Below, in pieces: positions 30,002 through 42,801 of a stretch of DNA of 64,000 bases (position 1 is its first letter; each line of letters starts with the position of its first letter). The stretch is from the NCBI RefSeq assembly GCF_000165795.1, contig NZ_CM001022.1, positions 248,001-312,000 of the forward strand, read 5' to 3'. The stretch is from Aminomonas paucivorans DSM 12260. Lineage in GTDB: Bacteria; Synergistota; Synergistia; Synergistales; Synergistaceae. The position numbers and the translations under genes are program-made. The notes beneath the pieces were generated by a model that made no database searches, was not told where the DNA came from, and saw nothing but the letters and a program-made list of their open reading frames with translations.

Positions 30002-30291
30002 TCAGGGACACGGCTCCTCTCTTCGGGGGGGCCGTGTCTTTTCCTGTGCTCTGCGAGCCTCCAGGGCACGGCGGATTTCCCGCACGCTTTGGAACACGTC
30101 CACGTTCCAGACGTCCGCCCCGATTTTCTCGGACCACCCTCGGGACGTCCTCCCTCCTGCCCGCAATCTCCTGCGGCGTGGCGAAGCAGGGGTCGCTGGC
30201 CTCAAGGATTATCCAGCGCCTACAGCAGGGTCGTCTTGCCGCTTCCCAGAAAGCCCGAGAGGAGGAAGACCCGGCACTTGCGGTCCCTCAC
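30002..30291 (-). pseudogene. Broken CobW/P-loop GTPase remnant
   Basis: A GTG at 30291 overlaps the stop of the preceding gene (GTGA). It encodes MRDRKCRVFLL-SGFLGSGKTTLL, a classic CobW/COG0523-type Walker A start, and then hits TAG at 30220-30222. A second, frameshifted piece on the same strand (to about 30002) reads IGADVWNVDVFQSVREIRRALEARRA and resembles a protein C-terminus. The middle of the gene seems deleted. In this corrinoid-activation operon it probably was a metal or cofactor chaperone GTPase. Confidence 0.55.
30007..30042 (+). terminator. Terminator after the DUF3798-like gene
   Basis: GACACGGC (30007-30014) pairs with GCCGTGTC (30031-30038), extended inward by CTCC/GGGG pairing, followed by TTTT. 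Confidence 0.8.
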
Positions 30292-31031
30292 GATTCGGCC
30301 TCCCGGGAGTCCATCTGAAGCCCCAGATGGCACCCCCCCAGCTGGTAGTACAGGCACCGCCTTCCCGCGCAGGGGCTGCAGGGAGAGGGGCCTCCGAAAA
30401 ACGCCCCCCCCTCCTTCCCCAGGCACAGGAAGGAGTATTGGGTCTTTCGGGGGTGGAACATGACGGAGCCGCGGGTTTCCGCCCCGAGGGTGGCCGCCGT
30501 CCTCCCCAGGCGTTCGACGCTCTCCACGAGGGGGCGGGAGGTGTTCCCGGAGCCGGGGTAGAACTCCCCGACGACGCGGTTTTCCCCGAAGGGGCGATCC
30601 GGGGAGCCGACCCATTCCCGCAGCAGGCGGTGCATGTCGTAGAGGGCGATGGAGCCCGCCACGTCCAGGAGCAGTCCCCACATGGCGTTTCCCTGCTGGC
30701 TCATGACGCGTTCGCACTCCCGTTCCAGCCCGTCCCCCAGGGTCCAGACCATCAGGACCAGCGTCCCCGCGCTTCCGGTCACCTCCCGGGGGAGCACGTC
30801 CACCACCTCCTCCGGGGCGATCCCCGCGACGCTGGCCCTGGGGGCGAGGAGCCCTTCTCCCTCCTGGGCCCAGAATCGGCGGAACGCTTCCACCTTGGGG
30901 ACGTGCCGCTTCCCGAGGGCCTGGTAGTGCCGCTTTAGGGGGGAGAGGTCGACGGCCAAGGGGAGTCCCGGGAACTCCCGGGGGGGATCGTCGCTTCGCC
31001 CGGAAGAGAAGTGGATGGTCATGGGTCTCAT
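30288..31031 (-). CDS. Methionine-synthase-activation-like corrinoid protein with Cys motif
   Basis: 247 residues. The region LVLMVWTLGDGLERECERVM, MWGLLLDVAGSIALYDMHRLLREWV and VGEFYPGSGNTSRPLVESVERL resembles the B12-dependent methionine synthase activation fold found in corrinoid methyltransferase clusters. A C-terminal Cys set (CSPCAGRRCLYYQLGGC) may bind an Fe-S cluster. It follows the RACE protein by 34 bases and probably helps keep a corrinoid protein in the Co(I) state. The family call is from pattern recall. Confidence 0.55.
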   Translation of the reverse strand: MRPMTIHFSSGRSDDPPREFPGLPLAVDLSPLKRHYQALGKRHVPKVEAFRRFWAQEGEGLLAPRASVAGIAPEEVVDVLPREVTGSAGTLVLMVWTLGDGLERECERVMSQQGNAMWGLLLDVAGSIALYDMHRLLREWVGSPDRPFGENRVVGEFYPGSGNTSRPLVESVERLGRTAATLGAETRGSVMFHPRKTQYSFLCLGKEGGAFFGGPSPCSPCAGRRCLYYQLGGCHLGLQMDSREAES

Positions 31032-31065: not shown

Positions 31066-32685
31066 TCAGAACGTCATGGCCCGGACGAAGCGCTCCTGAA
31101 AGTCCGGAAGGCGGGAAAGCTCGATGTAGCGCATCCTTTGGGCCGTCCGGGTCGTCCGCTCGTAGAAGCTTCGCGAGGCGAGGGCGCGGCAGGCTCCCAG
31201 GCCGGAGGTGTTCTGGACGCTTCGCACCTTTTCCGGGGGGACGTCCGGGACCAGGCCGACGGCGATGGCGCTGGGGACGTGGAGGTTGTTCCCGAAAGCC
31301 CCCGCCAGCAGGACCTCGTCCACCTCCTCCCGCGTCACGCCCCGTTCCGCAAGCAGCACCTCCACGCCGGTGTGGATGGCCCCCAGGGCCAGCTGGACCT
31401 CCCGGACGTCCTTTTGCGTCAGCGCCACCCCTTCCCGATGGTCCCCCAGGAGGAAGATCGTCATGCCCCTCTCGTCCCGGGCGAGGCGTTCCCGAAGCTG
31501 CGGGTGGGTGCACCGTTCCGGGGGAACGAACCGCCCGCTCCGCTCCACGATGCCCTCCCGGAGCAGAAGCGCCAGGGCGTCCACCAGCCCGGAACCGCAG
31601 AGCCCCTGGGGGCGCCCCCCTCCGATGACATCCAGGCACAGTCCCTCCGGCGCGAGCCTCACCCCTTCCACCGCTCCCTGCTGGGCCCGCATGCCCCACC
31701 GGATGCGCGCCCCCTCCAGGGCCGGACCCGCCGCGGTGGCGCAGCAGTGCAGGGCCTCCCGGTTGCCCAGCACGATCTCGTTGTTGGTGCCGATGTCCAC
31801 GAGAAGCCGCAGGGGGAGTTCCCCGTCCATCTCCATCGCGGTGGTCCCCGCCACGATGTCCCCCCCCACGTAGCCCGCCACGTTGGGGATGAGCCGCACC
31901 GGCGCCTCCGGGTGGGGAGCCCGAAGCCCCAGGGATGCGGATCGAACGGGCTCGTGGGCGAGGAAGGCCGGGGCGTAGGGGCTTTTCCCGATGCTCTCCG
32001 GGGAGACCCCCAGGAGAAGGTGCTCCATCACCGTGTTTCCCGCCACCACGATTTCCCGGATCTCCCGAGGGGGGACGCCGCTTTGCGCCGCCATCTCCCG
32101 GAGGGCGTCGTCCAGCCCGCGGACGATGGCCCCCTGGAGCCCCTCCAGGCCCTGGGGATGGGCCGTGGAGGCGGAAATCCGGGAGATGACGTCGTCCCCG
32201 AAGACGATCTGGGGGTTCAGAAAGGAGTGCAGCCCCAGGGGCTTTCGTCCCTGCAGGTCCAGGAGGCAGCAGGCCACCGTGGTGGTGCCCAGGTCCACGG
32301 AGACCCCCAGGCCGGGGCGCGGGTCGTCCCAGGGGAGCGTCGTATGCGGGGCGAGGTTCTCCAGGATCTTCTCGTTCGTCCCCTCGGTGGTGTCCAGCAC
32401 CAGGACGGCGCCGCTTCCGCGCAACGTGGCGCAGCAGGCCAGGCGGACCCCCGATGCCCGATCCGCAGGGGACAGGGTCCGCTCCTCCGTGGGCGATAGG
32501 GGGCTCAGGAAGGCGCCCCCCTCCTTCGGGCGGATGCGGCACTTCCCGCAGACCCCCACGCCGCCGCAGGAGTGCCCCAGGGGGACGCCGGCCCGAAGGG
32601 CCAGGTCGTCGATCCGTTCCCCCGGGATGCCCTCCGCAGTGGCGCCGGAGGGGAGGAAGACCAGGCGAAGGGGTCGGTCGGCCAT
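31066..32685 (-). CDS. RACE-type corrinoid-protein activator (2Fe-2S ferredoxin plus ASKHA/DUF4445)
   Basis: 539 residues, ATG 32685. The N-terminal plant-type ferredoxin has C40/C46/C49 (SCGGVGVCGKCRI) and C84 or C85. The large ASKHA domain follows: VSVDLGTTTVACCLLDL, NPQIVFGDDVISRI, LLVDIGTNNEIVLG, GSGLVDALALLL, LAGAFGNNLHVPSAIAVGLVPD. This is the reductive activator of corrinoid enzymes (RamA/RACE/DUF4445) group, which uses ATP and a low-potential electron to return Co(II) to Co(I). No corrinoid protein or methyltransferase is encoded next to it in the window. Confidence 0.82.
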   Translation of the reverse strand: MADRPLRLVFLPSGATAEGIPGERIDDLALRAGVPLGHSCGGVGVCGKCRIRPKEGGAFLSPLSPTEERTLSPADRASGVRLACCATLRGSGAVLVLDTTEGTNEKILENLAPHTTLPWDDPRPGLGVSVDLGTTTVACCLLDLQGRKPLGLHSFLNPQIVFGDDVISRISASTAHPQGLEGLQGAIVRGLDDALREMAAQSGVPPREIREIVVAGNTVMEHLLLGVSPESIGKSPYAPAFLAHEPVRSASLGLRAPHPEAPVRLIPNVAGYVGGDIVAGTTAMEMDGELPLRLLVDIGTNNEIVLGNREALHCCATAAGPALEGARIRWGMRAQQGAVEGVRLAPEGLCLDVIGGGRPQGLCGSGLVDALALLLREGIVERSGRFVPPERCTHPQLRERLARDERGMTIFLLGDHREGVALTQKDVREVQLALGAIHTGVEVLLAERGVTREEVDEVLLAGAFGNNLHVPSAIAVGLVPDVPPEKVRSVQNTSGLGACRALASRSFYERTTRTAQRMRYIELSRLPDFQERFVRAMTF

Positions 32686-33217: not shown

Positions 33218-33380
33218 CACAAGGGCGCGACCTGCGCCCCCATACGTAGGGTCGCGGCGGAGGAAGCCGGTGCAAAGCCGGCACAGCCCCGCTACGGTAA
33301 GGAGGACGACGTGCGGACGATCGCCACGGGGGGACCCCTGGAAGGCCCGCACGGAGGAGGATTCCAAGTCCGGATACTGC
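33218..33380 (+). promoter_or_regulatory. Cobalamin riboswitch
   Basis: The conserved core is GAAGCCGGTGCAAAGCCGGC followed by ACAGCCCCGCTACGGTAAGG (about 33264-33302), the B12-box arrangement, and the closing block AAGTCCGGATACTGC (about 33365-33379). A CCTTCC/GGAAGG hairpin followed by TTTT (about 33403-33427) may be the expression platform. It precedes a B12 receptor and ABC transporter operon and should repress it when cobalamin is plentiful. Confidence 0.9.
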
Positions 33381-33550: not shown

Positions 33551-34795
33551 ATGAGGAAGGGGTTTGGACGGGTTCTCTGGGGTGCCGCTGCGGGGATCGT
33601 CCTGCTGGCGGGGTGCGCCTTCGCCGTGGAGGCGGACAGCGCGGTCTACGCCACCAGCGACTTCACCACCGGGAGGCTGGGGGTGGCCGCGGGGAACGCC
33701 CTGACGCAGGTGGGCACCGTGGCGGGCGACCCGGGGGTGCTGGTCTTCCGCAAGAACGGGGCGGAGAAGGTGCTCTACCGGGAGCCGGTGAACTACGGGG
33801 CGGGGGAGGACACGGTGACGGTCTTCGACCCCGCCAACTGGTCCGCCCCGGAGGCGAACCTGCGCATGGGCCACAACATCTGCGGCGCCGTCGCCTCGGG
33901 ACAGCACCTGTTCTGTGCCAACTACTACAACGACGGCACGTCCTCCTTCCTCACGAAGCACGACATGAACGACCGGTACAAGCTGGTGGCCAGTCTGGAC
34001 CTGGACGACAAGAACGCCGCCAACGGGTCGGAGTACGTGAAGGACGTGGCCCTGGTGGACGGGGCCCTCTTCGTCCTGGTGGAGCGGCGGGACGGGGCCT
34101 GGCCTCCCGCCTTCTTCCCCAGCTCCCTGGTGAAGGTGGACCCCTCCGCCCTGACGGTTCAGGGAAGCGCGGAGCTGAACCCCAACCCCTCCACCATGGC
34201 CTATTCTTCCATCACAGGGAAGTTCTACGTGGCCTGCGTCGGCGGAACCCGCAACGCCGCGACCCTGCCCGCCACCTCCATCCAGACGGTGGTGCCCTCC
34301 ACCTTGGCGGTGGGGACCTTCGCCACGGCGGAAAACCTACCCGCTTCGGACAGGCAGTACGCCTTCGACCAGATCGGCGTGGCGGGAGGGGTGCTCTTCG
34401 TGACGGGGTACTTCAACGGCCCCGTGACCTGGCCCGCTCCGAACCCCTGCAAGGTCTACTCCTGCACCCTTCTGGCCCCGGCCATGACGGAGCGGGGCAG
34501 CTTCACCGGCTGGATCAACGACGCCGCCGCAGACCCGGAGCAGGGACGTTTCTGGGTGTCCCACCGGGGCACCGGGCAGGCCGACGGGGCCCTGGTGCTC
34601 TACGGTCTCTCGGGATCGGAGGTGCGCCGGTTCGATGAGGCGAAGCTGGGCGGCGTGCCCTACGCCGTGGCGCCCCTGACCCGCACCGGCGGCGGAAGCG
34701 GCGGCGGGTCCGGCGGCGGCTGCTCCGCTGCGGCCTTCTCCCCCTTCGCCCTGTTCCTGCTGCTGCCCCTTCTGGCCTTGCGGTGGCGGCGCTAG
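33551..34795 (+). CDS. Secreted beta-propeller-like protein with Synergist-CTERM tail, under B12 control
   Basis: 414 residues, ATG 33551. Signal peptide to about CAFA. Repeated strands such as SAVYATSDFTTGRLGVAAG, GVLVFRKNGAEKVLYRE, VTVFDPANW, SLVKVDPSALTVQGSAELNPNPSTMAYSSITGKFYVACVGG suggest a beta-propeller of about six blades. The tail GGGSGGGSGGGCSAAAF, hydrophobic helix and RWRR is a Synergist-CTERM signal. It is the first gene after the cobalamin riboswitch and overlaps the receptor gene by 13 bases, so a surface role in capturing cobalamin is inferred. No homologue of known function is recalled. Confidence 0.7.
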   Translation: MRKGFGRVLWGAAAGIVLLAGCAFAVEADSAVYATSDFTTGRLGVAAGNALTQVGTVAGDPGVLVFRKNGAEKVLYREPVNYGAGEDTVTVFDPANWSAPEANLRMGHNICGAVASGQHLFCANYYNDGTSSFLTKHDMNDRYKLVASLDLDDKNAANGSEYVKDVALVDGALFVLVERRDGAWPPAFFPSSLVKVDPSALTVQGSAELNPNPSTMAYSSITGKFYVACVGGTRNAATLPATSIQTVVPSTLAVGTFATAENLPASDRQYAFDQIGVAGGVLFVTGYFNGPVTWPAPNPCKVYSCTLLAPAMTERGSFTGWINDAAADPEQGRFWVSHRGTGQADGALVLYGLSGSEVRRFDEAKLGGVPYAVAPLTRTGGGSGGGSGGGCSAAAFSPFALFLLLPLLALRWRR

Positions 34796-36792
34796 ATTCC
34801 TACCCGGGGGGCCGGGCGGAACGCCCGGCCTCCCTCTCCCGCTGGGCCCGGCTCCTCCTTCTGGGAGGAGCCTTGGCATTTCTGGGCGCCCCCGCCCGGG
34901 GGGAGGACCTGCCCCCGGTGACGGTAACGGACACCCGTCTGGAGGCGGAGGAGGGGGCCGCTTCTCCGGGGTGCGTCACCATCCTCCGGCCCGAGGAGGT
35001 CCGGGGGGAGGCCAAGACGGTGGCGGACCTGCTGGAGCAGAGCGCGGGGGTGCACGTGGTGCGCCTCCGGGGTCGGGGCAACTACACCGTGGCCCTGGTG
35101 CGGGGCAGCACCGCCGCCCAGGTGGCGGTGTACCTGGACGGGACCCTGGTGAACTCCGCCGGGGAATCGGCGGTGGACCTCTCCACCCTCCCGGTGGAGT
35201 CGGTGGAGCGCATCGAGGTGTACCGGGGGGCCATCCCCGCCCGGTTCGGCGTCTCCGGCGCGGGGGCGGTGGTCTCCATCCTCACCCGGCGTCCCCGGGG
35301 ACGGGAGGGGTCCGTCCTGGTGCAGGGAGGCTCCTACGGTGAGTGGGGACTCTCGGGACGCTACGGCAACGATCTGGGGGACGGGCGCTACCTGGTCTCC
35401 TTCGGGTTCTCCGGATCCCAGGGGGATTTCTCCTACCACAACGACAACGGCACCCCCTGGAATCCCTCGGACGACTACGACGCCACCCGACAGAACAACG
35501 ACTGGACGGAGGGGAACCTGCTCTTCCGCTACCAGGGGGACGACGGCTGGCGCTTCCGCGCGGAGGCCTACCGTCGGGACCAGGACCTGCCCCGCAAGGC
35601 CTCGGGGAACGACCGCCCCGGGGACCCGCCGGGGTCCAACCTGGACACGCGACGGCTGCGCCTCGCCGCGGGGAAGGAGGGAAGCTGGGAAGGGGGCTCC
35701 TGGAGCTGGGACCTGACCTACGGTCGCCTGGAGAAGGAGTTCTTCGATCCCCTGGACCCCCGGACCCTGCCCACCCCCCGGTCCACCCGCAACCAGTACG
35801 ACACGGACCTGTGGGACCTCTCCGGCGGGACCACCCTGACCCCCTGGAAGGGGCACCGGGTGGACCTGCGCATGCGCCTGGCCCACGAGGCCCTCTCGGT
35901 GAAGGGGGACTACGTGGACCGCTACGGCCTGCGGGGGGAGTACACCCAGAACGCCACGGACCTCACCGCGGAGGACCGCATCGACCTGGGCGGGGGGACG
36001 GTCCTGGTCCCCACCCTGCGCTGGAACCGGGTGGACGACGAGTCCCACCTCTCCGGCGGCCTGGCCCTGGAGGGGCGCTTCTCCTCCTCCCTGGGGTGGC
36101 ACGCCTCCTGGGGGGTGTACCACCGGGCGCCGAACCTCTACGAGCGCTACGGCGACGGGGCCCTCATCCTTCCCCGGCCGGACCTGGAGTGGGAGCGCTC
36201 CGTCCAGTGGGACGCGGGGCTCCGCTGGTCCGGCACGGTCGCGGGGGGCCGGACGACCCTGGACGTGTCCTACTTCCAGGCGGACGCGGAGGATCTCATC
36301 GAGTTCGTCATGGCGGGGCCCTACGTGGGGTACTACGACAACATCGGCAAGAGCTTCGTCCGGGGGGCGGAGGTGGAGGCCACCTACGCCCGGGACACCT
36401 GGGACGCCGTCCTGGCCTACACCTACACGGACGGGGAGAACCGGACCCCCGGGGGAAACTACGGGAAACCCCTGCCCAACCGGCCCAAACACGCCGCCAC
36501 CCTGCGGGTCAACGGGGACCTGCTCCCCCGCCTCCGGGGTTTCCTGGAGGTGGAGTACCTGGGGGAGAACTGGGTGGACGCGGGGGCCAACCTGGCCTAC
36601 GAGGACCTCACCACGGTGGGGCTGGGGATCAAGTGGAGCCTCCGGGAGGGGGGCGTCCTCACCCTGGGGGTGCGGGACCTCTTCGACCAGTCCTCGGACC
36701 GGAAGAACCTCCCCACCTACGGCCCCTCGGAGCTGGCCTGGTACCCCGACCCGGGGCGCACCTTCTACGCATCCTACCTGTGGACCTTCTGA
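34783..36792 (+). CDS. btuB: TonB-dependent outer-membrane receptor, probably for cobalamin
   Basis: 669 residues from GTG 34783. Signal peptide ends near ARGE; TonB box LPPVTVTDTR; plug domain with VADLLEQSAGVHVVRLRG, VAVYLDGTLVNSAG, VESVERIEVYRGAIPARFG; then a 22-strand-type barrel ending with an aromatic residue (YLWTF). The gene lies in a riboswitch-controlled operon with btuFCD-like genes and exbB/exbD/tonB, which sets the likely substrate as a corrinoid. Confidence 0.87.
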   Translation: MAALDSYPGGRAERPASLSRWARLLLLGGALAFLGAPARGEDLPPVTVTDTRLEAEEGAASPGCVTILRPEEVRGEAKTVADLLEQSAGVHVVRLRGRGNYTVALVRGSTAAQVAVYLDGTLVNSAGESAVDLSTLPVESVERIEVYRGAIPARFGVSGAGAVVSILTRRPRGREGSVLVQGGSYGEWGLSGRYGNDLGDGRYLVSFGFSGSQGDFSYHNDNGTPWNPSDDYDATRQNNDWTEGNLLFRYQGDDGWRFRAEAYRRDQDLPRKASGNDRPGDPPGSNLDTRRLRLAAGKEGSWEGGSWSWDLTYGRLEKEFFDPLDPRTLPTPRSTRNQYDTDLWDLSGGTTLTPWKGHRVDLRMRLAHEALSVKGDYVDRYGLRGEYTQNATDLTAEDRIDLGGGTVLVPTLRWNRVDDESHLSGGLALEGRFSSSLGWHASWGVYHRAPNLYERYGDGALILPRPDLEWERSVQWDAGLRWSGTVAGGRTTLDVSYFQADAEDLIEFVMAGPYVGYYDNIGKSFVRGAEVEATYARDTWDAVLAYTYTDGENRTPGGNYGKPLPNRPKHAATLRVNGDLLPRLRGFLEVEYLGENWVDAGANLAYEDLTTVGLGIKWSLREGGVLTLGVRDLFDQSSDRKNLPTYGPSELAWYPDPGRTFYASYLWTF

Positions 36793-36825: not shown

Positions 36826-37992
36826 ATGAACGACCCACAGAACCCGGGGCGGCGCCGATTTCGAGCCCCCCTTCTCCTGTGCTGCCTGGCGGCGCTGCTT
36901 GCGGGAGGCCTTCCCGCCTGGGGAGCCCCGAAGGGGGAGGCCCCCCGCCACGCCCGGCTCTTCTCCCTGGATCGGAAGGAGGGGCTGACGGTGCTGCACA
37001 ACCGCCTCCCCTGGGGAGGGGCGACGGAAGAGCTGGCCTGGGTCCTGACCCCGGACCCCTCCGCCCCGGTTCCTCCGGCCCTGGCCGGACTCCCCCGGCT
37101 TCGGTGTCCCGCCCGGCGCATCGTGGCCCTCACCATCCCCGCGGTGAGCGCCCTCTCCCTGTTGGGTTGCTCGGACCGCATCGTGGGGGTGGGGGGCAAA
37201 CGGTTCCTCTACGATCCGGGGAAGGAGCTGGCGGGGGTGACGGAGGTGGGACCCGAAGGGGGCATGGGGCCCGACGCGGACCTGGAGCGCATCGTGGCCC
37301 TGAAGCCCGACGTGGTGCTGGCCTACGTCTACACGCCCCAGGAGAGGGCCACGGCGGAGCGCCTCGCCTCCCTGGGGGTCCCGGTGGTGTTCCTCTCGGA
37401 GTACCTGGAGGCGACCCCCCTGGGGATGGCGGAATGGCTGGTGGCCGTGGGAGCCCTGGTGGGTCGGGAGGCCCAGGCCCGGGCCTTCTACGACCGCACG
37501 GTTCTGGACTACGGGGCGATCCGCGCCCGGGCCCTGGGGGCTCAAGGTCGGCCCAAGGCCCTGGCGGGAGCCCCCTTCCAGGGGAGCTGGTACGTGGCGG
37601 GACGGGACAGCTGGCTGGCCCGCCTGGTGGGGGACGCGGGGGGGGACTACCTCTGGAAGGACCTGCCCGGCCGGGGCTCCGTGCCCGTGGAGGCGGAGAC
37701 GGTCTTCTCCCGGGCTTCGAAGGCGGACGTGTGGGTGCAGTGCGGTCTCTGGCGCTCCCTGGAGGAGATCCGCCGCAGCGACCCCCGGCTGGCCCAGCTG
37801 GCTCCCTTCCGGGGCGGTCGGGTCTTCAACAACGACGCCCGATCCCGGCCCGGAGGGGGCAACGACTACTACGAGAGCGGGGTCTGGCGCCCCGACCGGA
37901 TCCTGGGGGACCTGGCGGCGGTGCTGCACCCGGAGCGCTTCCCGGGGCACCGGTTCACCTACTACCGCAGACTCCCGGTAGGGAAGCCTTGA
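36826..37992 (+). CDS. btuF: ABC transporter substrate-binding protein, probably cobalamin
   Basis: 388 residues. Signal peptide ends near PAWGA. The fold is the BtuF/FepB class: RIVALTIPAVSALSLLGCSDRIVGVGG, DLERIVALKPDVVLAYVYTP, LGVPVVFLSEYLEATPLGMAEWL. The N-terminal part is longer than typical BtuF. Its stop overlaps the next start (TTGA). Confidence 0.85.
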   Translation: MNDPQNPGRRRFRAPLLLCCLAALLAGGLPAWGAPKGEAPRHARLFSLDRKEGLTVLHNRLPWGGATEELAWVLTPDPSAPVPPALAGLPRLRCPARRIVALTIPAVSALSLLGCSDRIVGVGGKRFLYDPGKELAGVTEVGPEGGMGPDADLERIVALKPDVVLAYVYTPQERATAERLASLGVPVVFLSEYLEATPLGMAEWLVAVGALVGREAQARAFYDRTVLDYGAIRARALGAQGRPKALAGAPFQGSWYVAGRDSWLARLVGDAGGDYLWKDLPGRGSVPVEAETVFSRASKADVWVQCGLWRSLEEIRRSDPRLAQLAPFRGGRVFNNDARSRPGGGNDYYESGVWRPDRILGDLAAVLHPERFPGHRFTYYRRLPVGKP

Positions 37993-39017
37993 GGGCGGAC
38001 GCCCTCCCCCGGGGCCTCTGGCTTCTGCTGCTGGCGGGGGCGGCCCTGGTCGCCTTCGGGGCGGACCTGTTCCTGGGCTCCGTCTCCATCCCGCCGGAGC
38101 GGGTGCTGCGGGCGCTCCTCTCCTGGGGGGTCCAGGACCCCCAGGACCGCATCGTCCTGGCCTTCCGCCTCCCCCGGGCGGCCACGGCCCTGCTGGCGGG
38201 GGCGGCCCTGGCCGCCTCGGGGCTGCTGATGCAGACCCTCTTCGAGAACCCCCTGGCGGGGTCCTTCGTCCTGGGGGTGGACTCCGGGGCGGGGCTGGGG
38301 GTGGCCCTGCTGCTTTTGGCGGCGGACTCCCTGGGGGCGGGGATCTCCCGCTTCCTGGCCCTGGGGGGGGTGGCGGCGGCCTCCTGGGCCGGGTCCCTGG
38401 CGGTGCTCCTGGTGGTGCTGCTGGTCTCCCGGCGGGTGGAGAACAACACGGTGCTCCTCATCCTGGGGCTCATGTTCGGCTACGCCTCCGGGTCCCTGGT
38501 GACGGTGCTGCTGCATTTCTCCTCGGGGGAGCAGGCCCACGGGTACCTGGCCTGGAGCTTCGGCACCTTCTCCGGCACCACGGGGGCCCAGGTGGGGGTG
38601 ATGGCCCTGGGCATCCTCCCCGCCCTTCTGGCGGCCTGCGCCCTGGCCAAGCCCCTGAACGCCCTCCTCCTGGGGGAACGCTACGCCGCCACCATGGGGG
38701 TCCCGGTGCGCCGCCTCCGGGGGGGGCTCATCGTGGTGGCCGCCCTCCTGTCGGGGAGCGTCACCGCCTTCTGCGGTCCCGTGGCCTTCCTGGGCATCGC
38801 CACCCCCCACCTGTGCCGGGCCCTGCTGCGCACCGAGGACCACCGGGTCCTCCTGCCCGCCTGCGTCGCCGCCGGGAGCCTCCTGGCCCTGGGGGCGGAC
38901 CTGGCCTCCCGGGGGCTGGGGGGCGGTCTGCCCCTGCCGGTGAACGCCGTCACCTCCCTCCTGGGGGCGCCGGTGGTGGTCTGGGTGGTGCTCCGGGGAA
39001 GGGGAGGACGACGATGA
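37989..39017 (+). CDS. btuC: FecCD-family ABC permease, probably cobalamin
   Basis: 342 residues from TTG 37989 overlapping the btuF stop. About ten membrane helices; family motifs FRLPRAATALLAGAALAASGLLMQTLFENPLA, LGVDSGAGLG, and FCGPVAFLGIATPHLCR with the coupling helix before it. It forms the membrane channel of the importer. Its stop overlaps the ATPase start (ATGA). Confidence 0.88.
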   Translation: MRADALPRGLWLLLLAGAALVAFGADLFLGSVSIPPERVLRALLSWGVQDPQDRIVLAFRLPRAATALLAGAALAASGLLMQTLFENPLAGSFVLGVDSGAGLGVALLLLAADSLGAGISRFLALGGVAAASWAGSLAVLLVVLLVSRRVENNTVLLILGLMFGYASGSLVTVLLHFSSGEQAHGYLAWSFGTFSGTTGAQVGVMALGILPALLAACALAKPLNALLLGERYAATMGVPVRRLRGGLIVVAALLSGSVTAFCGPVAFLGIATPHLCRALLRTEDHRVLLPACVAAGSLLALGADLASRGLGGGLPLPVNAVTSLLGAPVVVWVVLRGRGGRR

Positions 39018-40042
39018 ACGACCCCATCCTGGAACTGCGGGACCTGTCCGTGGGCTACCGGCTGGGGCGGGGGCGGACCGTACCCCTGGCGTCGGGGCTC
39101 AACCTGGCCCTGGCCCCGGGGACCCTCACCGCCCTGGTGGGGCGCAACGGGGCGGGGAAGAGCACCCTGCTGCGCACCCTGGCCCGGCTGCTTCCCCCCC
39201 TGGAGGGGCAGGTGCTCTTCCGGGGGCGTCCCGTGGGGACCCTGGGAGCCCGGGACTTCGCCCGATCCGTGAGCCTGGTGCTTCCGGAGCGGGACGCCCC
39301 CCCGAACCTGACGGTGCGGGACCTGGTGTCCCTGGGGCGCACCCCCCACACGGACTGGCGGGGCCGGTTGGGGGAGGGGGACCGCCGGGCGGTGGAAGAG
39401 GCCCTGACGACCCTGGAGCTGGAGGCGCTGGCGGACCGGAGGGTGGTGTCCTTGAGCGACGGGGAGCGGCAGCGGGCCTTCGTGGCCCGGGCCCTGGCCC
39501 AGGAACCGGAGCTGCTGCTGCTGGACGAGCCCACGGCCTTCTCGGACCTGCTGCACAAGGCGGAGGTGCTGCGCATCCTTCGGGAGACCTGCCTCCGGGG
39601 GGCCACGGTCCTGCTGATCCTCCACGACATCTCCGTGGCCCTTCGGTTCGCCCACCGCATCTGGGTGCTGGAGGAAGGACGGGTGGAGGAGGGGATCCCG
39701 GAGGACCTGCTCTTAGCCGGGACCCTGGAACGGCTCTTTTCTTCTCCTCGGCTGCGCTTCGACCCCCTTCGGGGGACCTATCGGGTCCCCCAGGAGGAGT
39801 TCCGGGGGGCCGTGGCCCTGCGGGGAGAGGGGCGGGCGGAGGCCTGCGCCGCCCTGGCCCTGGAGCGGTGGAAGCTGCGGCAGGACCCGGATGCGTCCCT
39901 GGTCCTGGAGGCCCGGGACGGGGTCTTCCGGCTCCGGGAGGGGGACCGGGACCTGGGGGTCTTTGGGCGTCTGGAGGACCTGGAGCGGGAACTCCGACGG
40001 CACCTTCCGGGGGAGGCCCCGGGAACGGCGGAAGGGAGCTGA
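39014..40042 (+). CDS. btuD: ABC transporter ATPase, probably cobalamin
   Basis: 342 residues. Walker A GRNGAGKST (about 43-51), signature LSDGERQRA from residue 147, Walker B LLLLDEPTAF, switch His in LILHDISVA. A C-terminal extension of about 95 residues follows the standard domain (RLRFDPLRGTYRVP onward), as in some FepC/BtuD-like ATPases. It powers uptake by BtuC. Confidence 0.87.
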   Translation: MNDPILELRDLSVGYRLGRGRTVPLASGLNLALAPGTLTALVGRNGAGKSTLLRTLARLLPPLEGQVLFRGRPVGTLGARDFARSVSLVLPERDAPPNLTVRDLVSLGRTPHTDWRGRLGEGDRRAVEEALTTLELEALADRRVVSLSDGERQRAFVARALAQEPELLLLDEPTAFSDLLHKAEVLRILRETCLRGATVLLILHDISVALRFAHRIWVLEEGRVEEGIPEDLLLAGTLERLFSSPRLRFDPLRGTYRVPQEEFRGAVALRGEGRAEACAALALERWKLRQDPDASLVLEARDGVFRLREGDRDLGVFGRLEDLERELRRHLPGEAPGTAEGS

Positions 40043-40046
40043 GAGC

Positions 40047-40682
40047 GTGGGGTTGCTTGAGATCATGCGGCTCGGGGGGGCCATCATGTGGGTCCTCCTG
40101 GGAATTTCCGTGGCCGCGGGGGCGGTGGTGGCGGAACGGCTGCTCTTCTTCCGACGGGCCTCCACCGACCCGGTCCGCCTGGAGGAGGGCATCGGCACCG
40201 CCCTCTGGGAGGAAAGCCCCGAAGAGGCCCTGCGCCTGGCCGCCTCCCGGGACGGATCCCTCCATCGGATCTTCGCCGCCGCCCTGGGGCACTGGGACGC
40301 CCCGGCGGAGACCCTGAAGCTCCTCCTGGAGCAGGAGCTGCGTCGGGAGGTGTTTCGCTGGGAGAAGGGGCTTTCCCTCCTCTCCGCCCTGGCCCGGGTG
40401 GCCCCCCTGCTGGGGCTTCTGGGGACGGTGCTGGGGATGGTGGAGATCTTCCGTGCCCTCCCCTCGGCGGGGATGGCTTCCCCCATGCTGGTGCTCTCCG
40501 GGGGCATCTGGAAGGCCCTGCTCACCACCGTGGCGGGGCTGGTGGTGGCGGTGCCCATCGTCCTGGCCCACACCTACCTGGTCTCCCGCATCCTGCGGGC
40601 GGAGGAGGGGCTGGAGCGGGGGGCTGACTTCCTCCTGCGGGAGAAGCTCCTGGGCCGGGGGGCCCGAAGGAACGGGGCATGA
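40047..40682 (+). CDS. exbB: ExbB-like MotA/TolQ/ExbB proton channel subunit
   Basis: 211 residues from GTG 40047. Three membrane helices; the family block RVAPLLGLLGTVLGMVEIFRAL and GGIWKALLTTVAGLVVAVPIVLAHTYL is clear. With ExbD it uses the proton gradient to energise TonB. ATGA overlap with exbD. Confidence 0.9.
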   Translation: MGLLEIMRLGGAIMWVLLGISVAAGAVVAERLLFFRRASTDPVRLEEGIGTALWEESPEEALRLAASRDGSLHRIFAAALGHWDAPAETLKLLLEQELRREVFRWEKGLSLLSALARVAPLLGLLGTVLGMVEIFRALPSAGMASPMLVLSGGIWKALLTTVAGLVVAVPIVLAHTYLVSRILRAEEGLERGADFLLREKLLGRGARRNGA

Positions 40683-41074
40683 AGGGCTTCTCCTCCCGCC
40701 GGGCCTCCCCGGACCTGGACATCACCCCCCTCATCGACATCCTCTTCATGCTGATCCTCTTCTTCGTCCTGGCGGCCACCTTCGACCGCGGGGGGCTCTC
40801 GGTGGACCTGCCCCGGGGGACGGCCCAGGAGGCCCAGAACCGTCCCTTCACCCTGACCGTGACCCCGGAGGGGACGATCCTGGCGGAAGGAACCCCGGTC
40901 GCCCCCGGGGAGGCGGTGCGCCGGGCCGCCGAGGCGGCGGGTACGGGGCGCCCCGTGGCCCTGGCGGGGGACCGAAAGGCCCCCTACGGGGTGGTGGCGG
41001 AGCTGCTGGACGGCCTCCGGGTCCAGGGAGTCCGGGCCGTGGGGCTCCTCACCCGCACCGGAAAGGCCCCCTGA
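40679..41074 (+). CDS. exbD: ExbD-like biopolymer transport protein
   Basis: 131 residues. DITPLIDILFMLILFFVLAATF is the single membrane helix with the conserved proton-pathway D20; the periplasmic domain follows (VDLPRGTAQEAQNRPFTLTV). Operates with ExbB and TonB. Confidence 0.9.
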   Translation: MKGFSSRRASPDLDITPLIDILFMLILFFVLAATFDRGGLSVDLPRGTAQEAQNRPFTLTVTPEGTILAEGTPVAPGEAVRRAAEAAGTGRPVALAGDRKAPYGVVAELLDGLRVQGVRAVGLLTRTGKAP

Positions 41075-41082
41075 CCCTCCCC

Positions 41083-41793
41083 ATGAAGCCCTACGCCCTG
41101 CCCCTGCTGCTCAGCCTGGGGATCCACGCCCTCCTGATGGGGGCCCTGGGGCTGTGGCGTCCCGCCCCCCTCCCCGAGGCGCCGGAGCGGGTGCTGGTGT
41201 TGCGCTTCGCCCCGGCTCCCCCGCCCCCCGTGGCCCCCCCCCGCAGGACGCCCCGGGCCGCGCCGCAGGCAGCCCCCCCGGAGCCCCGGAAGGCACCCGC
41301 CCCGGCGGCGGCGCCCAAACCGCCCCAGGCTCTCCCCCGCCGTGCCGCCGCCCCCGTTCCGGCTCCCGTCGCCCCCCTCCGCCCCGTTTCCCGGACCGCC
41401 GAACCCCCCGGAGCGGGGGAGGCGGAGGAGGTTCGAGGGGACGCCGCCCCCGCCTCGGGCTCCGGGACGAAGGAAGCGCCCCCTCCTCGGGAAGAGGCCG
41501 CAGCTCCGGGAGGCGAAGGACTGAAGGACGCGGAGGTGGTGGACGTTCGGGGCGTGGAGGTGCTCCGTCGCGTGGTGCCGGACTACCCCCCGTCGTGCCG
41601 CAGACGGGGCCAGGAGGGCACGACGGTGCTGGTGGCCCAGGTGGAGGGGGGAGCGGTGCGCTCCCTTCGGGTGGAACGGTCCAGCGGCTTCGGGGCCCTG
41701 GACGAGGCCGCCGCGGACGCCCTGAAACGCTGGCGCTTCGCCCGGGGCGTCACCGCCTCCGTCCGGGTCCCCGTGATCTTCCGGCTTCAGTGA
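41083..41793 (+). CDS. tonB: TonB energy transducer
   Basis: 236 residues. N-terminal membrane anchor LLLSLGIHALLMGALGLW, then a Pro/Ala-rich periplasm-spanning linker of about 130 residues, then the TonB C-terminal domain: RRVVPDYPPSCRRRGQEGTTVLVAQV and VERSSGFGALDEAAADALKRWRF. Last gene of the B12 operon. Confidence 0.88.
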   Translation: MKPYALPLLLSLGIHALLMGALGLWRPAPLPEAPERVLVLRFAPAPPPPVAPPRRTPRAAPQAAPPEPRKAPAPAAAPKPPQALPRRAAAPVPAPVAPLRPVSRTAEPPGAGEAEEVRGDAAPASGSGTKEAPPPREEAAAPGGEGLKDAEVVDVRGVEVLRRVVPDYPPSCRRRGQEGTTVLVAQVEGGAVRSLRVERSSGFGALDEAAADALKRWRFARGVTASVRVPVIFRLQ

Positions 41794-41833: not shown

Positions 41834-42172
41834 TCAGGGAAGAACGGAAGTCAGGTGGCTATTCAGGTAGCGGTTGAGACTGACCTTGGCTTCCGTCGCC
41901 TGGACCGCCAGCTTGCGGTGCAGCTCCGGAGTGGTCCGAAGAAGGATCTTGCCCGAATAGACCCGATCCGATAGCGGTTCGGGGATCGGCTCGCCGTTGC
42001 GCTCCATGTCCTCCACCGTCTCGGCGACGAGGGCCATGATCCCGCTGAAAGCCTTCTGCGGGTCCTTCTCCAGCCAAGAAAGGCTTGGGAACTCGGAACA
42101 GAGCCCGACGTACTCGTTGTCTCCCTGGGACCACTCCACCCGGTAGATGTAGTGGGACGTGTTTTCGTTCAT
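41834..42172 (-). CDS. hicB: HicB-family antitoxin with RHH-type C-terminus
   Basis: 112 residues from ATG 42172 with AAAGGAG upstream. The N-terminal HicB fold is YIYRVEWSQGDNEYVGLCSEFPSLSWLEKDPQKAFSGI; the C-terminal DNA-binding part is SGKILLRTTPELHRKLAVQATEAKVSLNRYLNSHL. It would neutralise a HicA-type RNase and repress its own operon. No complete toxin gene is adjacent, so it is an orphan. Confidence 0.8.
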   Translation of the reverse strand: MNENTSHYIYRVEWSQGDNEYVGLCSEFPSLSWLEKDPQKAFSGIMALVAETVEDMERNGEPIPEPLSDRVYSGKILLRTTPELHRKLAVQATEAKVSLNRYLNSHLTSVLP

Positions 42173-42307
42173 GACGGGCTCCTTTCTTCGCCTTCCAGTA
42201 GGCGATCGGTGGGCCTTGATGACCTGCTTGACCTGGTATCCTTTGGCTTTGCCGCCTTCGCCTTTCTGAATGTTGACCCTCGGGTCACCGGGCCAAGGCG
42301 TCTTGAA
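42173..42307 (-). pseudogene. Remnant of a small protein (possible toxin 3' end)
   Basis: The 135 bases between hicB and the CRISPR array read in one open minus-strand frame: DPRVNIQKGEGGKAKGYQVK then QVIKAHR. It looks protein-like but has no start, because the repeat array begins directly upstream. By position it may be the end of the partner toxin cut off by the array. Confidence 0.35.
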
Positions 42308-42739
42308 GTCATAGCTCCCTGCCGCACTCCGAAATGCTATGCTTATAACCTTGCTTATGTCATGCGCCGGGCGGTCATAGCTCCCTGCCGCACTCCGAAA
42401 TGCTATGCTCGGGGGCGCAGCCCCTCGAATGCCGCCTACGTCATAGCTCCCTGCCGCACTCCGAAATGCTATGCTCACGACCGTTGTGGTGTCCACCGAT
42501 ACCGCGTCATAGCTCCCTGCCGCACTCCGAAATGCTATGCTTAGAAAAACCCCGCCAAAAGACAAAGAATCGTCATAGCTCCCTGCCGCACTCCGAAATG
42601 CTATGCTCCTAGTCCGGGCGTTTGATGCTATGTTCCCGTCATAGCTCCCTGCCGCACTCCGAAATGCTATGCTAGGGGGCCACCTACCCCCGGTGTCGTA
42701 TAAGTCATAGCTCCCTGCCGCACTCCGAAATGCTATGCT
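42308..42739 (+). CRISPR. Type II-C CRISPR array, 7 repeats
   Basis: Seven identical 36-base repeats (start GTCATAGCTCCC, end GAAATGCTATGCT) at 42308, 42374, 42440, 42506, 42572, 42638 and 42704, with six 30-base spacers. The repeat resembles the Neisseria type II-C repeat (GTTGTAGCTCCC ... CAGTGCTACAAT), which sets the crRNA direction as the plus strand, opposite to the cas operon. Each repeat ends in TGCTATGCT, an extended -10-like element. Confidence 0.95.
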
Positions 42740-42743
42740 GTTC

Positions 42744-42787
42744 CGCCGAGAGGCCCTCTTCCCCAGCGGGTTGAGGGCCTCTCGGCG
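42744..42787. terminator. Strong hairpin between the II-C array and cas2
   Basis: A perfect 15-bp stem (CGCCGAGAGGCCCTC with 42773-42787) and a 14-base loop lie between the oppositely transcribed array and cas2. No long T-run; likely a shared bidirectional terminator. Confidence 0.6.
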
Positions 42788-42801
42788 CTTCAAAAATAAG
42801 G

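Follow-up and report, generated by a model that had tools for sequence, protein, structure and literature searches.

What is the role of the protein encoded at the head of the cobalamin import operon of Aminomonas paucivorans DSM 12260, directly before a gene for a BtuB-like receptor? The original prediction saw in it a surface beta-propeller that might capture corrinoids, in the manner of the surface lipoproteins paired with BtuB in Bacteroides. Those proteins, BtuG1, BtuG2 and BtuG3 of Bacteroides thetaiotaomicron, are seven-bladed beta-propellers (PMC6143338, PMC10404256); BtuG binds B12 with femtomolar affinity and forms a lid on BtuB, a mechanism established by experiment (PMC6143338, PMC10404256), and has been described as exclusive to Bacteroidetes (PMC6143338). 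We consider it highly probable that the gene is the Synergistota counterpart of BtuG, capturing corrinoids at the cell surface for the adjacent BtuB-like receptor.

The operon and its riboswitch

The propeller gene begins with an ATG at 33551, its stop codon ends at 34795 and its product (P0001) is 414 amino acids long. Its surroundings in the window (the whole stretch of 64,000 nucleotides analysed) contain the following features:

33261–33378, + strand: cobalamin riboswitch aptamer RF00174 (74.8 bits against a gathering threshold of 31.5, E 1.3e-16; model positions 46–168 of 189)
33551–34795, + strand: predicted BtuG-like propeller protein, 414 aa, P0001 (translation; family matches in 70 of 188 Synergistota genomes; btuB linkage)
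33551–33628, + strand: putative N-terminal signal peptide, residues 1 to about 26 (by sequence; contains a lipobox-like LLAGC with Cys22)
33626–34675, + strand: predicted propeller domain, residues 26–375 (family alignments A2 and A6, PDB profile matches, low-confidence models)
34709–34792, + strand: Synerg-CTERM sorting tail, residues 387–414 (TIGR04564, E 1.3e-9; Cys391, transmembrane stretch, basic end)
34783–36792, + strand: BtuB-like TonB-dependent receptor (PF00593, PF07715; start GTG at 34783)
36826–37992, + strand: BtuF-like periplasmic binding protein (PF01497, E 1.4e-20)
37992–39017, + strand: BtuC-like permease, start approximate (PF01032, FecCD, E 4.1e-68)
39014–40042, + strand: BtuD-like ATPase (PF00005, E 2.6e-31)
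40065–40682, + strand: ExbB, start approximate (PF01618, E 3.3e-28)
40679–41074, + strand: ExbD (PF02472, E 1.1e-19)
41092–41793, + strand: TonB, start approximate (PF03544, E 4.8e-11)

The riboswitch ends 172 nt before the propeller ATG, the propeller and receptor genes share a 13-bp overlap, and by Pfam the order is propeller, TonB receptor, btuF, btuC, btuD, exbB, exbD and tonB. Riboswitch control, the overlap with the receptor gene and the place of the propeller gene at the front of a complete B12 import operon, all claimed in the original prediction, were thus borne out. The receptor carries the plug (PF07715) and barrel (PF00593) of TonB-dependent receptors and is the sole PF00593 match in the A. 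paucivorans genome. Its best PDB matches are to E. coli BtuB and its best NCBIfam match is the B12 receptor model TIGR01779, at 147.7 bits below the equivalog cut-off of 599.7; the BtuF-like protein also matches IsdE (NCBIfam). For the propeller protein itself Pfam gave no match and NCBIfam only that to the Synerg-CTERM tail, and a single-sequence search of the PDB returned nothing beyond noise.

The genome contains four cobalamin riboswitches, which also precede cbi- and hem-like genes (names assigned by eye); on that ground it seems to make cobalamin, and import would then add to what the cell produces itself. A riboswitch at L036:2715-2879 (genome C1:35714-35878) precedes aconitase-, isocitrate dehydrogenase- and citrate lyase-like genes (also named by eye), perhaps a B12-repressed alternative to the B12-dependent glutamate route. 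Divergent from the operon, on the − strand, lie genes for a RACo/AcsV-like corrinoid-protein reactivase (31066–32685; PF14574, PF17651) and for a 247-aa protein without family match (30288–31031), possibly a corrinoid-enzyme partner. Elsewhere in the window we found a molybdenum/tungsten cofactor riboswitch (RF01055, 8650–8744, − strand, 52.7 bits) and, directly 3' of tonB, a CRISPR-like short-repeat array (about 42150–42800, seen in the translations of open reading frames).

Family distribution and linkage to btuB

Relatives were collected by sequence alone, without use of gene neighbourhood. An initial search found matches in 19 of 61 genomes (A. paucivorans and its relatives), most of them adjoined by the riboswitch and btuB; a scan of genome contigs with a two-sequence alignment returned one locus, L031 (Synergistaceae UBA5560). 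Profile A2 extended the family matches to 70 of 188 Synergistota genomes, in 35 of 63 genera. No relatives turned up in the viral or plasmid collections. PF16819 (DUF5074) was considered as a label for the family and dropped, given no match in the A. paucivorans genome and a weak match in two of 19 relatives.

Linkage was tallied for 66 propellers, taken from the flanks of 60 places together with the earlier loci. A BtuB-like receptor adjoins 51 of them (within 700 bp, same strand), receptor-linked propellers occur in 26 of 30 genera, and 36 of the 48 propeller-receptor pairs scanned have RF00174 within 1 kb on their upstream side. Neither btuB nor the riboswitch was nearby in 11 of the 63 riboswitch-scanned members, several of which are at contig ends. 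Linkage to btuB is thus conserved across the phylum, which was one of the two points, with B12 binding, on which the original prediction could have failed; together with the riboswitch it supports a corrinoid-capturing partner of BtuB, by analogy with the Bacteroides surface lipoproteins.

Propeller and receptor have also diversified together. Their distance matrices (48 pairs) correlate with a Mantel r of 0.85, where permutation gave at most 0.18. In genomes with two or three pairs, 10 of 11 tests showed the propeller tracking its own neighbouring receptor better than another copy, and the remaining test was tied. Since these paralogous pairs are compared inside one genome, species relatedness is controlled for. 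Such co-diversification could come from inheritance as an operon or cassette alone, without physical partnership.

Some members depart from the simple arrangement. Three larger relatives (L005:1321-3552, L020:1465-3702 and L074:1682-5239, about 750–1190 aa) have sequence added to the propeller, and in the two that were scanned the only curated family above cut-off was the tail; an added domain (BtuH) is found in BtuG1 too. One genome has six family matches altogether, with four family propeller genes within 25 kb (G087:C1:1326626-1351102; L100, L127), one of them about 1.1 kb from btuB.

The predicted surface anchor

The surface-sorting tail claimed for the protein is present: residues 387–414 match TIGR04564 with 38 bits (cut-off 22.5). 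The A. paucivorans genome encodes 15 such Synerg-CTERM proteins and a single CPBP protease; the latter matches the model of MrtS, the protease of the Synerg-CTERM system (NF040589, 243.4 bits against 130). A rhombosortase had been considered as the sorting protease; the genome encodes none, and MrtS, a CPBP protease, takes its place as the candidate. The system resembles that of the MYXO-CTERM proteins and the myxosortase MrtX, in which the C-terminal tag likewise consists of an invariant Cys, a transmembrane segment and a basic end and is matched by a CPBP intramembrane protease. MYXO-CTERM proteins are cleaved by myxosortase and displayed on the surface (PMC11980579), and by analogy the C-terminal Cys of the Synerg-CTERM tail may be lipidated. 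The open-licence literature yielded no experimental work on the Synerg-CTERM system.

A Gly-rich Cys motif ends 61 of the 66 relatives. In the deepest lineage both members sampled (L131 and L132) instead have N-terminal lipoboxes (LLWGC and TALWGC) and no tail, and across four genomes of that lineage there was just one Synerg-CTERM match, in one genome, and no CPBP match other than weak ones. With the tail in most relatives and the lipobox in the deepest lineage, one Cys-based anchor has seemingly been exchanged for another. The A. paucivorans protein itself contains LLAGC, a lipobox-like stretch that ends at Cys22 and that relatives of the same order mostly lack. In one single-contig genome (G014:C1:1468458-1472385) the gene for MrtS and a family propeller gene are about 2 kb apart, with two cobalamin riboswitches between them.

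Relation to BtuG and proposed role

The beta-propeller fold of the original prediction found support in profile matches to solved propellers and in the Foldseek matches of low-confidence models, and none in the Pfam and NCBIfam propeller models, which do not match the A. paucivorans protein. Two AlphaFold models from two-sequence alignments reached a mean pLDDT of 49 both times. The Foldseek lists of both include many beta-propellers, with BtuG2 second and fourth for one model and BtuG1 second for the other; VIA-align placed BtuG level with many unrelated seven-bladed propellers, which supports a propeller only. Structure prediction, which had been suggested as a check, thus brought propellers to the fore, BtuG included, and the comparison of the B12 pocket was abandoned because the models were too poor.

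Profile searches were more specific. With profile A2, BtuG1 structures rank first in the PDB (E 1.1e-11). The 66-sequence alignment reaches BtuG1 with E 1.5e-11, where designed kelch propellers, which have internal repeats, score alike; on the best single stretch BtuG1 has 5.5e-8 against 0.006 for designed kelch. Profile-profile comparison (hhalign) scored 97.5 for BtuG against 57.7 for YncE. The family HMM (A6) gives BtuG1-type sequences 27–44 bits, YncE types at most 16, the kelch protein NanM 9, and TolB and Pgl about 0; BtuG2 and Persicobacter sequences, at 9–12 bits, are near noise, and it is largely a single blade that carries the match to BtuG. Even between BtuG1 and BtuG2 the similarity is weak (E about 1e-5). 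The protein had been held to be unrelated in sequence to the Bacteroides lipoproteins; this is not clearly so, as the family profiles match BtuG1, if remotely, above the YncE, kelch and TolB controls. We take these matches as support for, and not proof of, a remote kinship with the BtuG1 branch.

The loci can be compared as well. Plasmid records supplied the BtuG sequences of Bacteroidota used here, and four of the five stretches fetched have a cobalamin riboswitch; a Bacteroides finegoldii locus shows the same order of YncE-family protein, TonB receptor, substrate-binding protein and permease. The Synergistota protein thus resembles BtuG in its predicted propeller fold, in a gene that adjoins btuB and stands with btuF and btuC under a cobalamin riboswitch, in acidic charge, in its strongest profile similarity (to BtuG1) and in the gene order of the B. 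finegoldii locus. It differs in its very low sequence identity, in a B12 binding that is so far predicted, and in its C-terminal Synerg-CTERM where BtuG has an N-terminal lipobox and Bacteroidetes export signal. We have not filed the family under BtuG because this N-terminal anchor is not the family's and its kinship with BtuG is remote and tentative. The net charge (family median −15.5, A. paucivorans protein −10) would suit electrostatic capture, and BtuG2 is acidic too (PMC10404256). The conserved residues of the BtuG2 pocket for B12, Trp194, Tyr239, Trp272, Tyr316 and Tyr335, were located in a BtuG2 sequence, and its alignment to the family is too uncertain to map them. BtuH and DUF4465 (BtuJ) of Bacteroidota, accessory surface proteins that capture B12 and are encoded in btu loci under riboswitch control (PMC8941943, PMC13398666), are unlike the Synergistota protein: they are not propellers (BtuJ1 is a beta-jelly-roll; PMC13398666), and it has no match to their domains in Pfam or NCBIfam. 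YncE is the other propeller with a comparable neighbourhood, its YVTN-type gene adjoining the TonB-dependent receptor gene pqqU in E. coli K-12 (L136:964-4369), on the opposite strand; its profile score is below that of BtuG, and we know of no cobalamin riboswitch there.

A BtuB-partner propeller may have been recruited separately in Synergistota, BtuG-like in action and of other propeller ancestry, a reading that we hold possible, though doubtful. The lack of pairwise similarity, the equal scores of designed kelch proteins with the larger alignment, the VIA-align tie with unrelated seven-bladed propellers and the different anchor all speak for it; the preference of the family profiles for BtuG over YncE, kelch, TolB and Pgl controls and the gene order shared with B. 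finegoldii speak against. The fuller version, in which Synergistota evolved a surface corrinoid-capturing propeller for BtuB independently of Bacteroidota and sorted it via Synerg-CTERM and MrtS, seems to us rather unlikely. If an independent origin were true, lid-type B12 capture would have arisen at least twice on a propeller scaffold.

Linkage and co-diversification indicate a partnership with the receptor and not ligand binding, and E. coli YncE, also a propeller, is encoded beside pqqU with no known ligand transfer; the propeller might then bind the receptor or another envelope component, helping to assemble, gate or shield the receptor, without binding corrinoids. We think this improbable, as the acidic charge of the family suits capture and the nearest studied propellers with such linkage, the BtuG proteins, bind B12 (PMC10404256, PMC6143338). 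That the pair imports another ligand, such as a metal or haem complex, and is merely regulated by cobalamin is more improbable still: the weak BtuB and BtuF assignments, with the IsdE match, would allow it, but in both the PDB and NCBIfam the receptor is matched best by B12 receptors, pair after pair has the cobalamin riboswitch, and cobalamin-repressed import of a different substrate would be unusual.

Returning to corrinoid capture at the surface, very likely the propeller works like BtuG. The N-terminal signal peptide would export it, and MrtS would presumably process the Synerg-CTERM tail at or near the invariant Cys, the tail serving as anchor. Sitting at the outer face of the cell like a lid over the co-encoded BtuB-like receptor, the propeller would capture external cobalamin or other corrinoids and hand them over to the receptor; the co-encoded TonB-ExbBD would drive import through the receptor, BtuF-BtuCD would then carry the corrinoid inward, and abundant cobalamin would turn the operon off through the riboswitch.

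What is new here is the phylum, Synergistota, and the anchor, a C-terminal Synerg-CTERM with MrtS or, in the deepest lineage, an N-terminal lipobox. The open-licence literature held nothing relevant on BtuG in Synergistota, and it has been proposed that Bacteroides generally take up small molecules with the help of lids (PMC10404256). With a BtuG-like partner next to BtuB in 26 Synergistota genera, lid-type vitamin capture would extend to another phylum. An N-terminal lipid anchor and a C-terminal Synerg-CTERM on the same protein offer a natural test of the tail as a lipoprotein-like surface anchor, the propeller is a named candidate substrate of MrtS, and the operon provides a defined, testable B12 locus in a phylum with little transport work.
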